Positions 35,924 to 42,947 of a DNA stretch of 48,133 bases are shown here, piece by piece. Position numbers and translations under genes: made by a program. Positions within the stretch are counted from its first letter, which is position 1; each line of letters opens with the position of its first letter. The notes beneath the pieces were generated by a model. That model saw only the letters and a list, made by a program, of their open reading frames with translations. It was not told the DNA's origin and made no database searches. Location of the stretch: the NCBI GenBank assembly GCA_018433345.1, contig JAHDRK010000064.1:1-48133 (forward strand). Reading direction: 5' to 3'. The stretch comes from Syntrophobacterales bacterium (lineage in GTDB: Bacteria; Desulfobacterota; Syntrophia; Syntrophales; UBA2210).

Positions 35924-36613
35924 ATGGACTATATTTTACAGGGGTTCCTGGAGGGGTCGAGGCTTCTTCTTGCAGGCGACAATGAAACATACACGGTGGT
36001 TTTCACCACCGTCAAAGTATCGTCACTTTCCATCACCGCGAGTCTATTGATCGGCGTTCCCCTGGGATTTCTTCTGGGATACTTCGAATTCCCGGGGCAA
36101 CGCCATATCAAGACCGTGGTGGACACACTCCTGGCACTTCCCACGGTAGTGGTGGGGTTGTTTGTTTATGCCTTCGTTTCCCGTCAGGGCCCCCTGGGGG
36201 AACTTGGATTACTGTTCACCATTCCGGGAATCGCTATCGCCCAGACGATTCTTGTAACTCCCATAGTTGTATCTCTCACGGCTACGGCCATCGAGAGTCT
36301 CGACCGCCGCCTACGACCGACACTGGTGGCCCTCGGGGCGCGGGGGAACCAGATTCTACTCACGAGCGTTATGGAGGCGCGCCACGGGATAGCTGCAGCG
36401 GCGGTTACGGCCTACGGCCGCGCAATATCGGAGGTCGGCGTTTCCATGATGATCGGCGGCAACATCAAGTGGCACACAAGGACTATAACGACGGCAATTT
36501 CCCTAGAAACGGCAAAGGGTGAGTTTGCCTTGGGCATGGCCCTGGGCATGGTGCTTCTGTTACTTGCCCTGATAGTCAACGCTATGCTCATCGCCTTAAA
36601 GAAAAAAGCATGA
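35924..36613 (+). CDS. tupB: Tungstate ABC transporter permease
   Basis: A 229-residue membrane protein with five to six hydrophobic segments and the binding-protein-dependent permease EAA-like loop (LGARGNQILLTSVMEARHGI). Start VVFTTVKVSSLSITASLLIGVPLGFLLG shape is typical of TupB and related short permeases. It lies 33 bases after tupA and its stop overlaps the start of the ATPase gene (ATGA), which indicates coupled translation. Confidence 0.93.
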   Translation: MDYILQGFLEGSRLLLAGDNETYTVVFTTVKVSSLSITASLLIGVPLGFLLGYFEFPGQRHIKTVVDTLLALPTVVVGLFVYAFVSRQGPLGELGLLFTIPGIAIAQTILVTPIVVSLTATAIESLDRRLRPTLVALGARGNQILLTSVMEARHGIAAAAVTAYGRAISEVGVSMMIGGNIKWHTRTITTAISLETAKGEFALGMALGMVLLLLALIVNAMLIALKKKA

Positions 36614-37650
36614 TGGAAACAACCGCCGGATTACCGTTATACCTTGTTGAAAACATCGAACACCGTCTCAGTGAACACTTTGAACTTCGCGTCCCTCGGC
36701 TGGTTGTCAATCGGGGAGAGTCACTGGGAGTGGCTGGGCCAAGCGGAGGCGGTAAAAGCACCCTACTGTCCCTCCTTGCTTTCCTCGACAAGCCGCAACG
36801 GGGACGCATCATGTTCAACGGACATGATGCATGGTATGACAAGAGCGACAATTCCAACAAGGGAGTCACCCACCTGTCGCAGGAGCCATACCTCCTTAAA
36901 AGAAGCGTCTTTGACAATGTGGCCTATCCATTGAAAATAAGGGGGCGCTACGGATCGATAAAAAAGAAGGTTTATGAAGCCCTCGACATGGTCGGCCTAA
37001 AACCGAATGTATTCGCCTCAAGACGGTGGTACGAGCTATCGGGAGGAGAGGCCCAACGGGTCGCCCTTGCCGCCAGGCTGGTGCTCAAACCCCAAGTATT
37101 GATCCTAGACGAACCGACATCGGGCATCGACCAGACAAACGCACTCCTTATCAAGGAAGCCATCACTTCTTTCAGGAAGGCATACGGGACATCACTTATC
37201 ATGGCAAGCCACGACACGCTCTGGCTCGCGGGCGCAACGGACCGCGTAATCAAGCTTTTCGACGGACGCATTGTGACGACTGAATCGGCCAACTTGATCC
37301 CCGGACCCTGGATAAAACAGGAGAAGGAACTATTCGCCAAAAAGCTGGCCGATGAACGGTTGATCTACGCCGTCACACCGCCGCACAGCGAAGCCACGGG
37401 CATCCTCGATCCATCGGATATCATTATAGCACTCGAACCGCCTATGGAAGTTTCCGCGCAGAACATTCTCCCCGGGCGCATCAGCCGCATGACCGCCCGA
37501 GGTAAAGAACGGGCCATCATCGTCGAGGTCATAGTGGCCGACATTCCCCTCTCTTGCCGGGTCACACGCCAAGGAGCGCGACAACTGGGGCTGTTGCCGG
37601 GAAAAGAAGTATGGCTGGTTTTCAAGGCGTCATCCATACGGTGGGAATAA
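36610..37650 (+). CDS. tupC: Tungstate ABC transporter ATP-binding protein with C-terminal TOBE/MOP-like domain
   Basis: A 346-residue ATPase with Walker A GPSGGGKST, signature YELSGGEAQRVALAARL, Walker B VLILDEPTSGID and the H-loop ASHDT. Residues from about 270 form a TOBE/MOP-like domain (ALEPPMEVSAQNILPGRI ... VWLVFKASSIRW), which in molybdate and tungstate ATPases binds the oxyanion and can inhibit transport. TupC proteins often lack this domain, so the extension is worth noting. It overlaps tupB by four bases and closes the operon. Confidence 0.92.
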   Translation: MMETTAGLPLYLVENIEHRLSEHFELRVPRLVVNRGESLGVAGPSGGGKSTLLSLLAFLDKPQRGRIMFNGHDAWYDKSDNSNKGVTHLSQEPYLLKRSVFDNVAYPLKIRGRYGSIKKKVYEALDMVGLKPNVFASRRWYELSGGEAQRVALAARLVLKPQVLILDEPTSGIDQTNALLIKEAITSFRKAYGTSLIMASHDTLWLAGATDRVIKLFDGRIVTTESANLIPGPWIKQEKELFAKKLADERLIYAVTPPHSEATGILDPSDIIIALEPPMEVSAQNILPGRISRMTARGKERAIIVEVIVADIPLSCRVTRQGARQLGLLPGKEVWLVFKASSIRWE

Positions 37651-37721
37651 ACTGAAAAGAGAGTGGATTTTAAGTTCCTTCCAAATATTCACAGTGGCCG
37701 CGGCCGTGGTCCCGAAGGGCG

Positions 37722-37843
37722 AATCAAGATTTTTTCGATAACTGTTCCCATCGAAGCGAAACGACCGCGCCTCGAACTGTCCGAGCCCGAAGGGCGGGTT
37801 TCGAGGCGCGATGCGAGATCCGGAACTGTCGAAAAAAGATTCT
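37722..37843. repeat. Composite intergenic palindrome (REP-like)
   Basis: Nested inverted repeats: outer arms AGATTTTTTCGA...GTTCC (37727-37748) and GGAACTGTCGAAAAAAGAT (37822-37840), a perfect 11-base stem CGCGCCTCGAA/TTCGAGGCGCG (37766-37776 and 37800-37810), and inner GCCC-GAAG-GGC. A related smaller palindrome CCTTCGACAGGGCTC/GAGCTTGTCAGGG lies at 37922-37952. No ORF is supported in the whole 37651-38128 spacer. Such elements are typical dispersed intergenic repeats. Confidence 0.65.
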
Positions 37844-37970
37844 GAGACCGAGGAATCATGGCCACGAAATATTATTTCGCAAAATCCCGATCCCCCCTTG
37901 CCGGGTCCTACCCCGTTACATCCTTCGACAGGGCTCTCCTGAGCTTGTCAGGGATATTTACGACCCCTCA

Positions 37971-38066
37971 CCCATAGCCTCTAGCCCATAGCCTCTAGCC
38001 CATAGCCTCCGGCAAAGCCGCACCTTTTACCCTTCACCCTTTACCCCTTACCTGCGGCAAAGCCGC
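37971..38066. repeat. Short tandem and duplicated repeats
   Basis: CCCATAGCCTCTAG occurs in tandem at 37971 and 37985, with a third diverged copy at 37999. The motif GGCAAAGCCGC then occurs twice (near 38011 and 38055), separating runs of CCTTTACCC/CCTTCACCC. The whole looks like slippage-grown non-coding sequence. Copy number could vary between strains. Confidence 0.7.
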
Positions 38067-38128
38067 GCCCCTCGCCCATATCTTTTTCCCCAAATGTCAA
38101 GTTTAAAGATTTGACCCCCATTCTTCCA

Positions 38129-38863
38129 TTATATCCCCTGCTTCGCCGCTGCTGCGTAAGCGCCGATCAACCCTTCGTCGGCAAAACTAAAATAACGGTT
38201 GTCGCCTATGATAATGTGATCGAAGCAGGTTATGCCCGTTGCCGTGGCGGCAATGACCAGGTTGCGTGTAAAGGTCTTGTCCTGGTCACTGGGCTGGATT
38301 GAACCGGATGGATGGTTGTGGGCTACAATTATGGAGGATGCGTTTTTACGGATCGCCGCCTGGAGAATTTCCCTGATGTGGGGATTGACCTGATCCACTG
38401 TTCCGTTATCAACGTCTATCATATCACTGATGACATTTTTTCTGTCCAGGAGGAGAAGAACGAACCGTTCCTTTTTCAGGTCTCTCATGATGGGCATTAA
38501 GCGCTGCGCCACGTCGGATGAGTGGCGCACGGGATCGCTGGTGCTTTTTTCTTCGCTCTGCATGCGACGTCCCAACTCTATGGCCGCCTTGAGTTGGGCT
38601 ATTTTCGCTTCTTTCATGCCACCGATCTCCCGGAATTCACTCACGTCGACACCGCTCATGACCCTGAGCGATTTAAAGCGATGCAATAGTTCGCGGCCTA
38701 TATCGACGGCGCTCCGGCCCCTCGTGCCGGTCCTGATGATGATGGCGATTAGCTCGGCATTGCTCAACGTCTGCTCGCCGTACTTGAGCAGTTTTTCTCT
38801 CGGCCTATCCTCCTCGGACCATTCCCTGATGGCAACAGTATAATTTGAATCCTGTTCACCCAT
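38129..38863 (-). CDS. radC: RadC family JAB/MPN-domain protein
   Basis: A 244-residue protein. The start at 38863 (MGEQDSNYTV) is fixed by GGAGGTG five bases upstream; the frame extends further but without support. The N-terminal part has an UPF0758-type helix-hairpin-helix region (LSNAELIAIIIRTGTRGRSAVDIG). The C-terminal JAB1/MPN+ metal site is complete: HNHPSGSIQPSDQD gives the two His and Asp of the JAMM motif. Despite its name the family's role in DNA repair is not settled; the domain is that of a metallo-isopeptidase or hydrolase. It stands alone next to the repeat-rich spacer. Confidence 0.94.
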   Translation of the reverse strand: MGEQDSNYTVAIREWSEEDRPREKLLKYGEQTLSNAELIAIIIRTGTRGRSAVDIGRELLHRFKSLRVMSGVDVSEFREIGGMKEAKIAQLKAAIELGRRMQSEEKSTSDPVRHSSDVAQRLMPIMRDLKKERFVLLLLDRKNVISDMIDVDNGTVDQVNPHIREILQAAIRKNASSIIVAHNHPSGSIQPSDQDKTFTRNLVIAATATGITCFDHIIIGDNRYFSFADEGLIGAYAAAAKQGI

Positions 38864-39114
38864 GACGCACCTCCCCTTGTGGCTCGAGCGGTCCTTCCCT
38901 TCAAGCGTTGGGAACAGTGGAACCGGAACATGACATCGGTGGCGGTCCAAGTATTCAATGAAAAATCAAGCATTCTGTAAGTGACGATAATGACCAGGGA
39001 TAAAGGAACTCTATCGGGATGAGAGGATGACTCAATAGCAACAAGATCTCAAAAAGTCAACAGATATTCCCACCGAAAATCACGAACACTCCCAAGACAG
39101 GCAACCGTCGCGCA

Positions 39115-40113
39115 TTACTTGAAGACCCGGTCGGCCGCCTTCCGAGGCTTGAAACCCAGGCGCTCCAACATCTCCAGGTCATCCTGCAGTGATCTCCCCG
39201 CGGTGGTTAGATAGTCGTCGGTCATAACGCCGCTCGCCCCGGCATAAAATACAAGGGGGTGCATGTCCCTCATCGCGCTTTCACGTCCCCCGCAAACCAG
39301 TATGTCTGCGCCCGGAAGAATGAAACGAAGCACGGCTATAATCTTCAGGCACCGGAGAGGACTTATAGGTTCGCTTTCCCCGAGCCTTGTTCCGGGAATG
39401 GGAACGAGAAAATTGACCGGCACGGCATCCACTTGGAGTTCCTTGAGCGCCAGACCCAGTTCGATAACCTGTTCGTCGGTCTCACCCACGCCGAAGATGC
39501 CGCCGGAGCAAATGGAGAACCCGGCGCTGCGGGCCGCCTCTACCGTGGCCACCCGTTCCCTGTAGGTGTGCGTGGTACAGATGTGTTCGAAGTGACTCTC
39601 GGCGGTCTCCAGGTTGTGATGATATCGAGTAACCCCCGCTGCCTTGAGAATCCGAAAGTCCTCTTCCCCGAGGATGCCCAAAGACGTGCAAAGACCGATC
39701 CGCTCACCCTTGAGACCTTCCAGGGCCTCTGCCACCGCATACACTTCGGCCCGCGGGATCCTGCGGCCGCTTGTAACAACGGCATATCTGTCCACGGGAG
39801 CAGCCGCCACTCTTGTGCCGCCTTCTCGCATCTTTTCCGCTTCAAGGAGGGGATAGACAGGGGCATCCGTGCCGGCGACCTTCGACTGGGAGCAGAAGGC
39901 ACAATCCTCGCTGCAACGGCCCGACTTACCGTTACAGATGGCGCATAGGTGAACATGTTTCCCGAAATAACGATCCCGTATAAGGTCGGCACCCGCGAGA
40001 AGCGTAAAAAAGCGGCTTTCCGGAAGCGTTGCGAGATCTCGGTATGCCTCGCTTCCCGGATCCTGTCCTTCGGCGATGCATTCAGCCAATTCGATCAGGT
40101 TTTTTCGATCCAT
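39115..40113 (-). CDS. bioB: Biotin synthase
   Basis: A 332-residue radical SAM enzyme. The cluster motif is CxxxCxxC in GRCSEDCAFCSQS, preceded by HLCAICNGKSG. Other BioB landmarks follow: RYHHNLETAESHF, TYRERVATVEAARSAG, CSGGIFGVGET and a conserved Arg in VCGGRES. It inserts sulfur into dethiobiotin, the last step of biotin synthesis. I start at ATG 40113; TTG at 40134 is possible and would overlap the upstream gene. It looks intact and is the last gene of a leftward unit after the bioA-bioD chimera, 17 bases away. Confidence 0.95.
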   Translation of the reverse strand: MDRKNLIELAECIAEGQDPGSEAYRDLATLPESRFFTLLAGADLIRDRYFGKHVHLCAICNGKSGRCSEDCAFCSQSKVAGTDAPVYPLLEAEKMREGGTRVAAAPVDRYAVVTSGRRIPRAEVYAVAEALEGLKGERIGLCTSLGILGEEDFRILKAAGVTRYHHNLETAESHFEHICTTHTYRERVATVEAARSAGFSICSGGIFGVGETDEQVIELGLALKELQVDAVPVNFLVPIPGTRLGESEPISPLRCLKIIAVLRFILPGADILVCGGRESAMRDMHPLVFYAGASGVMTDDYLTTAGRSLQDDLEMLERLGFKPRKAADRVFK

Positions 40114-40130
40114 CGTATCGTGTATTCCCC

Positions 40131-40886
40131 TCAAACAAAGTTGCGGTAAAAACAGTCGGTCAACGCCTTCGCGTTGAGCCTTTCCATCGGCTCCACCTCG
40201 GCCAGGACTTCGGTTTTGCCGTAAAATTCCAGTGCTTCCCTGTTTTCCCTGTTGACGTCACCGTTCATAACGATCCCCGCGACTGAAATCCCCCGTCTTC
40301 TCAACTGTTCCAGCGACAACAGCGTATGATTGATGGTTCCCAGCCCGCTCCCGGCCACCAACAGGACCGGAAGCCCGAACCGCGCCATCAGATCAATCAT
40401 CATTGCTTCTTCGTTCAGTGGAACCATTATGCCGCCCGCCCCCTGCACCCCCGGTTCGATCATCACTGCCGCCAGTTCCCCGTGACGTTTCTCCATGATT
40501 TTTTTGAAATCGCTTATATATTCTTCATCCCAGGGATCATCGAATCGACAACGCGGGGTTTCGGCAAAATAATGCCGCGACAGGAGGGACGTAAAATGTT
40601 CGTGCATGCCCGTCACGGGATCACAAAGAGCCATGGCTCCGAATGTATCGCCGTGATAACCCCCGCGGACCGTAAGAAAGCGGTTCTTTTCGGGACGTCC
40701 GGATCCTTGCCAATATTGGATGGCCATCTTCAGGGCAACTTCGACGCTCACCGATCCGGAATCGGCGAAAAATAGAAGCGCCACAAGGACGATCTGTCGT
40801 CTGAATATGGCGATCCACTGCAGACAAGATACTTGTTTATACCTCTTTGCCGTGTTATTTATACAAATGGAAAATCGATACTTCAA
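40131..40886 (-). pseudogene. bioA-bioD: Deletion fusion of bioA (aminotransferase middle) and bioD (dethiobiotin synthetase C-terminus)
   Basis: The 251-residue ORF is a chimera. Residues from about 40 to 160 are BioA (FFADSGSVSVEVALKMA, GGYHGDTFGAMA, AVMIEPGVQGAGG), and the rest is BioD (VPLNEEAMMIDLMARFGLP, AGSGLGTINHTLLSLEQL). The join is at GAGG (complement 40431-40442), a motif in both families. Lost are the BioA C-terminal half, with the PLP lysine, and the BioD N-terminal half, with the P-loop. The BioA start is also missing: the first 40 residues match nothing. A short reading in another frame (ending near 40827, SAVDRHI) faintly resembles a BioA N-terminus. Neither activity can survive. 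The order bioA-bioD-bioB suggests a former biotin operon that suffered two deletions. Confidence 0.85.
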
Positions 40887-40910
40887 TTAAAATAATAGAG
40901 GAGCCGAACA

Positions 40911-41879
40911 ATGACCGACATCGTAATGGACGGGCTTTATCGTATTGAAGTCCCTCTCCCGAACAGCCCCCTGAAGGAGCTGAATTCATTCGTCATCATG
41001 AGCGACAACCGCAACCTTGTGATCGACACGGGATTCAACCGGGAAGTCTGTTTCGAGGCCATGAAGAAGGGAATCGCCGACCTTGACTTGGATCTCTCGA
41101 AAACAGATTTTTTCATAACCCACATGCACGCCGATCATTCGGGTCTGGTAACGAGACTGGCGACGGAAACAAGCAGGATTTATTTCAGCAGAATAGACGC
41201 ACGGGTTTTCGACAAGGACTCGGACTGGCGACCCATGCTGGAGTTCGCTGGAATCAATGGTTTCCCCGCGGAAGAACTTGCCAGGGCACTAAACAGCCAC
41301 CCCGGTTTCAAATACAGCCCCAAGGGCGTTCCAAATTTTGAACTGGTGGACGAAGGCAGTATAATCACCATCGGAGACTTTCGCCTCCAATGCCTTTTGA
41401 CGCCGGGGCATACCCAGGGTCATATCTGCCTTTATGACGAAGAGAAAAGGCTGTTGTTTTCAGGCGATCACATCCTCTACGACATAACACCCCACATCGA
41501 GTCCTGGGCATATCAGGTGAACGCCCTGCAGGACTACCTGGATAGTCTCGATCGAGTTTATGACCTCTCTGTAGGGCTGGTTCTGCCGGGCCACCGCACC
41601 TTCTTCACAGATCTCAAGGGAAGAATCGACGAACTCAAGAAACATCACGAAGAACGAGCCTCCGAAGTGTTGGAGGTTATGAACGGTCGCACAATGAACG
41701 CTTACGAAATAGCGGCGGAAATGACCTGGGACATTGATTGCGATAGGTGGGAGGACTTTCCCGTCGCCCAGAAATGGTTTGCCACCGGCGAGGCCATCGC
41801 CCACCTTCGATACCTCGAAAGCGAAGGACGCGTCCGCCGCAATGTCGGATCTGACGTAATCACCTTTTCGGCGGCATGA
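40911..41879 (+). CDS. MBL-fold metallo-hydrolase
   Basis: A 322-residue metallo-beta-lactamase-fold protein. The zinc motif is THMHADHSG near residue 70. Further ligands are in LTPGHTQGH and LFSGDHIL, with a final His in VLPGHRTFF. After the MBL core an extra C-terminal helical domain (about residues 245-322) resembles the winged-helix-like cap of LACTB2-type hydrolases. GAGGAG lies eight bases before the ATG. It is divergent from the bioA-bioD remnant. The substrate cannot be named; thioesters or nucleic acids are both known for the fold. Confidence 0.9.
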   Translation: MTDIVMDGLYRIEVPLPNSPLKELNSFVIMSDNRNLVIDTGFNREVCFEAMKKGIADLDLDLSKTDFFITHMHADHSGLVTRLATETSRIYFSRIDARVFDKDSDWRPMLEFAGINGFPAEELARALNSHPGFKYSPKGVPNFELVDEGSIITIGDFRLQCLLTPGHTQGHICLYDEEKRLLFSGDHILYDITPHIESWAYQVNALQDYLDSLDRVYDLSVGLVLPGHRTFFTDLKGRIDELKKHHEERASEVLEVMNGRTMNAYEIAAEMTWDIDCDRWEDFPVAQKWFATGEAIAHLRYLESEGRVRRNVGSDVITFSAA

Positions 41880-41889
41880 AATGAACTAA

Positions 41890-41918
41890 AGGGGCGGTGA
41901 TGAAAGCCGCCCGCCCCT
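41890..41918. terminator. Hairpin between convergent genes, possible terminator
   Basis: AGGGGCGG (41890-41897) pairs perfectly with CCGCCCCT (41911-41918) around a 13-base loop, between the MBL gene and the convergent MaoC gene. No U-tract follows on either strand. Confidence 0.35.
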
Positions 41919-41973
41919 CCGCCTCCAAAATCAACGGCGTCAGACCGCCCAAGGAAGCCCCGGAACATATCTC

Positions 41974-42432
41974 CTAGAAAAACAACATCGACAATGTCTC
42001 GGCGACACAGGCCGGCTTTTCCGCGCCCTCGATTTCGATCGTATGGTTATGGGTCATCAGTATCCGATTGCCCGGTCTTTCCTCCAGATCTAGAAGAACG
42101 ATGCGGTCCCTGATACGTGAACCGGAGGGAACGGGGTTGAGAAACCGTACCTTGTTGAGACCGTAGTTAACGCTCATGAGAGCCCCCTCGAAGCGCATGG
42201 GCACCTGATAGCTGAAATAGGGAATGTGTGACAGCGTAAGGAATCCATGTGCAATGGTGGTCCCGAAGGGACCCGCGGCGGCCTTTTCCTGGTCTACGTG
42301 AATCCACTGGTGATCCCTGGTGCAGTCCGCAAACTGATTTATCTGCTCTTGGGTGATTTCCACCCAGTCTGAACAGAAGATTTCTTTACCTATGAGTTCT
42401 TTTTTTTCTTCAATGGCTTCGGCTACTGACAT
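41974..42432 (-). CDS. MaoC-like (R)-specific enoyl-CoA hydratase / dehydratase
   Basis: A 152-residue hot-dog-fold protein. ATG 42432 is chosen because GAGGAGG lies eight bases upstream. The hydratase motif is complete: FADCTRDHQWIHVD supplies the catalytic Asp and His, followed by GPFGTTIAHGFLTLS. MaoC proteins hydrate 2-enoyl-CoA to the R-3-hydroxy form, in fatty-acid or polyhydroxyalkanoate metabolism. A nodulation-type NodN relative is an alternative name for the same fold. It is a single gene, convergent with the MBL hydrolase. Confidence 0.92.
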   Translation of the reverse strand: MSVAEAIEEKKELIGKEIFCSDWVEITQEQINQFADCTRDHQWIHVDQEKAAAGPFGTTIAHGFLTLSHIPYFSYQVPMRFEGALMSVNYGLNKVRFLNPVPSGSRIRDRIVLLDLEERPGNRILMTHNHTIEIEGAEKPACVAETLSMLFF

Positions 42433-42947
42433 GACGATGACCTCCTCGATATTTTTTGCCTTTCTTGTCAACTTTATAGGCGTTCCGGACGATACGTCGG
42501 CCGATCACAAATATATCCAGCGGCTGGTGAACCGTCGCAAATCCCGACAAGCAGTGCAAAACCGCCGCCTAAGACTGCCGGGGGCAGGCGTGAGACAAAA
42601 CTGAGGTCCTTCCGCAGTCCTTCTCCATGAACAACCTCAACCCGCAATCCCCACCGGAAACGTCATGTTTTTACGCGGCTTTGATCAGTTGCTATATACG
42701 GCCCCCGGAAACCGGTGTCAAGTCCGGCGAGCTGTCCGAAGAATGCCGCCAGGTTGACGGTCCCCCTACAATTACGGTGAGTAGATAGGGCGGCCCGGCA
42801 GAAAACCCGGTGTCTCCCCCAAAGGGGCGGACGAAAGATCATGAAAACAAAGGATATTTCTTGAAAAAGCCTGAATTTTAAACTATTTGATAAAAAATAA
42901 ATGCGATAGTGGATGAAATCTTTCGGCGTCGGGAAAGGACGAGAGCC
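42433..42947. other. Divergent intergenic region between MaoC and cupin genes
   Basis: No gene is supported in this 515-base stretch. At 42705-42736 the string GGAAACCGGTGTCAAGTCCGG then CGAGCTGTCC recalls the central GAA-CCGGTG-AA-TCCGG hairpin of cobalamin riboswitches, but the flanking conserved blocks are not recognisable. A weak promoter TTGAAA (42861), 17-base spacer, TATTTG (42884) precedes the cupin gene. Confidence 0.35.

Follow-up and report, generated by a model that had tools for sequence, protein, structure and literature searches.

A bioA-bioD fusion reading frame beside an intact bioB, the probable remnant of a recent deletion in a bioA-bioF-bioD-bioB operon

Bacteria that carry bioB without the other late biotin genes are known as desthiobiotin auxotrophs; they account for ~20% of 1068 aquatic genomes, and bioB-only strains grew on desthiobiotin (PMC9561691). 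The genome analysed here has the gene content that defines this group, with bioB present and at least one of bioF, bioA and bioD absent from a MAG that is 93% complete. Like the described auxotrophs, it has kept bioB and lost the function of bioA, bioF and bioD. It differs from them in that a broken remnant still lies beside bioB, that no BioY was found in the assembly, and that its state is predicted from sequence. The remnant is a chimeric open reading frame (ORF) of 251 codons on the complementary strand, at 40131-40886 of the window, i.e. the whole stretch of 48,133 nucleotides that was analysed; the TTG listed as its start is unlikely to be the true one.

One comparison is with Arabidopsis BIO3-BIO1 (PDB entries 4a0f and 4a0g), a natural fusion of dethiobiotin synthetase and BioA. 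In both cases the same two enzymes are joined in one chain. The order is opposite, however, and both domains of the plant protein are complete and active, whereas both are truncated in the fusion described here, for which a bifunctional role of the BIO3-BIO1 type was rejected for this reason. Bacterial deletions between short direct repeats offer the second comparison, as they leave a junction inside a short sequence common to both ends. The shared stretch at the fusion is, in contrast to such repeats, a protein motif, and the reading frame is therefore kept automatically. Literature searches for bioA/bioD fusions and for microhomology deletions in bacteria yielded nothing useful.

The ORF matches profiles of both families. 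Pfam Aminotran_3 covers fusion residues 23-157 (profile positions 74-209 of 403, E 5.5e-27) and AAA_26 covers residues 147-240 (profile positions 104-197 of 198, E 1.9e-28). The two matches meet at a GAGG motif, in agreement with an earlier note on this DNA, which had read the ORF as BioA sequence running into BioD. The NCBIfam bioA model TIGR00508 is matched at positions 93-213 of 419 with 148 bits (cut-off 405), and the bioD model TIGR00347 at positions 105-166 of 166 with 67.6 bits (cut-off 83.3); both scores remain under the whole-protein cut-offs because each half is a fragment. The BioA part extends over about fusion residues 37-152, and the BioA-derived slice at 40431-40769 (complement) corresponds to approximately residues 110-222 of full BioA, from FFADSGS to VQGAGG. 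The BioD part, defined by the Pfam and NCBIfam profiles and by homologue alignment, comprises residues 147-251 (40131-40442, complement), the C-terminal half of BioD including its own stop codon. Judged by alignment position, the C-terminal half of BioA, the site of the PLP-binding lysine, and the P-loop region of BioD (GTDTxxGKT) are both absent, as the earlier note had stated. Hence, neither a BioA nor a BioD enzyme can be encoded by this ORF.

The crossover site, at 40431-40442 (complement), consists of the GAGG codons GGG GCG GGC GGC, which are common to BioA and BioD; the breakpoint lies at the coordinates claimed before. Across the junction the sequence reads EPGVQGAGGIMVPL (VQGAGGIMVPL). 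BioA homologues have EP[IV]VQGAGGM, nearly always VQGAGGM, and BioD homologues have EGAGG, mostly followed by [LVI]MVP. The Q before GAGG is of the BioA type and the IMVPL after it of the BioD type, so that the joint lies inside the four GAGG codons. This Q, a BioA residue, is the sole departure from the conserved columns in the BioD part. GAGG itself is carried by 80 of the 87 BioA and 32 of the 37 BioD homologues in the set analysed, which bears out its description as a motif found at that place in both enzymes.

Intact operons of other genomes serve as a model of the parent. Genomes from other families of the same phylum contain the closest matches to the BioD part, and three of them (L205, L207 and L208) hold bioA-bioF-bioD-bioB on one strand as overlapping genes, all four complete, with bioF above the curated cut-off in L205 and L207. 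The fusion locus has the same order and strand, with bioD next to bioB, and its BioD part and BioB are 55-59% and 51-55% identical to theirs; only bioB is complete in it, whereas the three operons have four complete genes. GAGG is present at the corresponding place in both bioA and bioD in all three operons, and the two sites are 2,124 (L205), 2,140 (L207) and 2,124 bp (L208) apart. With this spacing of ~2.1 kb and bioF in between, a single deletion between the sites would join bioA and bioD and take out bioF entirely. The junction falls within sequence common to both parent sites, as in microhomology-mediated deletions, with 11-14 of 15 nt alike in the three operons: 14 in L205, where this is the best 15-nt match between bioA and bioD, and only 12 in L207 and 11 in L208; the operons are from other families and do not give the exact microhomology length of the true parent. 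For a random in-frame junction, the probability of at least four shared residues was computed as 1-2e-4 for the three operons, whose bioA and bioD products also share a few other four-residue words, two of them (AEIE and MEQI) being found in both of the most similar operons.

From these data we conclude that the ORF is very probably a recent deletion relic, i.e. a pseudogene, of a bioA-bioF-bioD-bioB operon, joined from GAGG to GAGG. A RecA-independent event, possibly replication slippage or microhomology end joining, would have brought the GAGG codons of bioA and bioD together and removed ~2.1 kb, comprising the 3' half of bioA, bioF in full and the 5' half of bioD. Since the two motifs share a frame, the product would be an in-frame fusion retaining the 3' end of bioD and the ribosome-binding region of bioB, and a separate event would have taken away the start of bioA. 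The junction residues and the GAGG spacing thus support the earlier proposal of a deletion through the shared motif. Its joining of bioA and bioD at GAGG stands, while the loss of bioF, evident from the intact gene order and from the gene content of the assembly, had been overlooked.

Elsewhere in the assembly (2.13 Mb, 112 contigs), inspection of the PF00202 and AAA_26 matches revealed no second bioA or bioD; in a MAG, unassembled second gene copies are possible. The other PF00202 proteins were rejected as bioA, EctB by profile and, by reading, ArgD and also HemL, which is truncated where its contig ends; the remaining AAA_26 protein was read as CobB. Nor was bioF found in the assembly. These results support the predicted loss of the late biotin pathway with bioB, which is full length, being kept. 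The assembly does encode a biotin ligase of the BirA type as well as a biotin carboxylase, hence biotin is presumably needed. The organism probably requires either exogenous dethiobiotin, which would be converted by BioB, or biotin.

The fusion shows hardly any decay. Of 43 near-invariant BioA positions a single one differs, the junction residue is the only change at conserved BioD positions, and the 251 codons contain neither a stop nor a frameshift; a relaxed-selection test on the ORF detected no excess of changes, so that old decay gains no support from it. This leaves a recent deletion, a fault in the assembly, or an ORF that is kept. In the case of an assembly artefact, ~2.1 kb between similar sites would have been skipped, or strain variants merged, and the real genome would have the full operon. 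The nearly undecayed halves and the fragmentation of the MAG into 112 contigs speak for this. However, the usual assemblers use k-mers longer than the 12 shared nucleotides, which are too few to lead them astray, there are no Ns, and no other contig carries bioF or the missing halves. The ORF has, in addition, a second, unrelated junction at its 5' side, and in a congener (G002) bioB likewise sits on a contig devoid of bioA and bioD. The shortness of the match, the absence of the missing parts from all contigs and the congener's bioB lead us to regard the fusion as real and a misassembly as unlikely.

If the ORF were instead kept by selection, it might serve not as an enzyme but as a short leader ORF translationally coupled to bioB, a reading we hold to be very improbable. 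It would account for the frame being open across the junction and through all codons, for the good conservation of both halves and for the mere 11 nt that separate the bioD stop from the bioB ATG, and bioD and bioB overlap in the intact operons. Nevertheless, a motif shared in frame yields an in-frame product without selection, a recent origin explains the missing decay equally well, and the fusion occurs in no relative. That the fusion was retained as a translated leader coupling bioB to translation of the operon, the shared motif permitting a deletion that cuts three genes and yet does not silence the needed one, is similarly a quite improbable extension. The same open, undecayed frame could also suggest a new functional protein with an unknown activity. 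Each half, though, is an incomplete fold that lacks its catalytic part, and the same junction was found in none of the 154 other genomes of the class (155 including the fusion genome), leaving this reading a practically negligible probability. Relatives with the same ORF conserved, which would have spoken for a real enzyme according to the earlier note, were thus looked for in these 154 genomes and not seen.

Returning to the deletion relic, we infer from the near absence of decay that the deletion is recent. As a pseudogene the locus is instructive yet of an ordinary kind, the bioB-only state having already been described in bacteria (PMC9561691); it contributes one more example and no new principle. 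What it offers is a base-resolution view of one route from a full bioAFDB operon to a bioB-only genome, a single deletion via an in-frame shared motif, with the remnant of the step still in place.

The adjacent bioB (39115-40119, complement; ATG at 40119) encodes an intact biotin synthase. It scores 370 bits against TIGR00433 (cut-off 225, positions 6-307 of 307), its product matches biotin synthases in the PDB, and the CxxxCxxC radical SAM motif is present as CSEDCAFC, aligned to biotin synthase 8vdw. Compared with the bioB of G002, a genome of the same genus, it is 67% identical, with dN 0.27 and a saturated dS of 2.5; over 331 codons, the first, second and third codon positions differ at 89, 62 and 198 sites. 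The BioB protein is under strong constraint by purifying selection.

Within the genus, bioB is present in two of five genomes, the fusion genome and G002. On the G002 contig no remnants of bioA or bioD were found alongside the gene, which stands alone (L157 7097-8110, G002:C52); its upstream ~2.4 kb are without clear genes, and a short transposase-like ORF precedes it. In G001 and G003 the MBL and MaoC-like neighbours are present but bio genes are not. Upstream of the MBL gene, the sequences of G001 and the fusion genome cannot be aligned. At the place of the bio remnant, divergent from the MBL-fold gene, G001 has a gene that reads as a CoA-transferase/hydrolase (L158 13947-15563, G001:C46). 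Outside the genus, the closest bioB genes (51-55%) are in bioA-F-D-B operons of other families, while those of the same order reach 36-48%; the closer match to other families suggests, without proving it, that the bio operon was acquired by transfer.

At the 5' end of the fusion, the first hundred or so BioA residues are missing. This truncation is real, as had been seen in the earlier note, which put it down to a second deletion; neither its mechanism nor the source of the joined sequence was found. The joined sequence upstream of the BioA slice (40770-40910, complement) bears no likeness to a BioA N-terminus and is unique in the genome; for the segment 40755-40912, no second copy was detected in the genome or genus. 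A weak promoter-like TTGAAG-17-TATAAA at 40886-40858, pointing into the ORF, was read by eye; a scan did not report it. A search of 36500-42500 for riboswitches or other Rfam RNAs was negative.

Two dispersed repeats were also noticed in the window. For an intergenic element of ~165 bp at 37698-37868, about a dozen additional copies of nearly full length (86-91% identical), as well as partial ones, exist elsewhere in the genome. It has a central GC-rich hairpin (DNA fold z-score -2.6) and no Rfam match, and resembles dispersed repeats of the REP or MITE kind. The second intergenic repeat, at 37963-38128, has ~40 partial copies in the genome and contains tandem copies, with a spacing of 14 nt, of a unit containing CCCATAGCCTCTAG.
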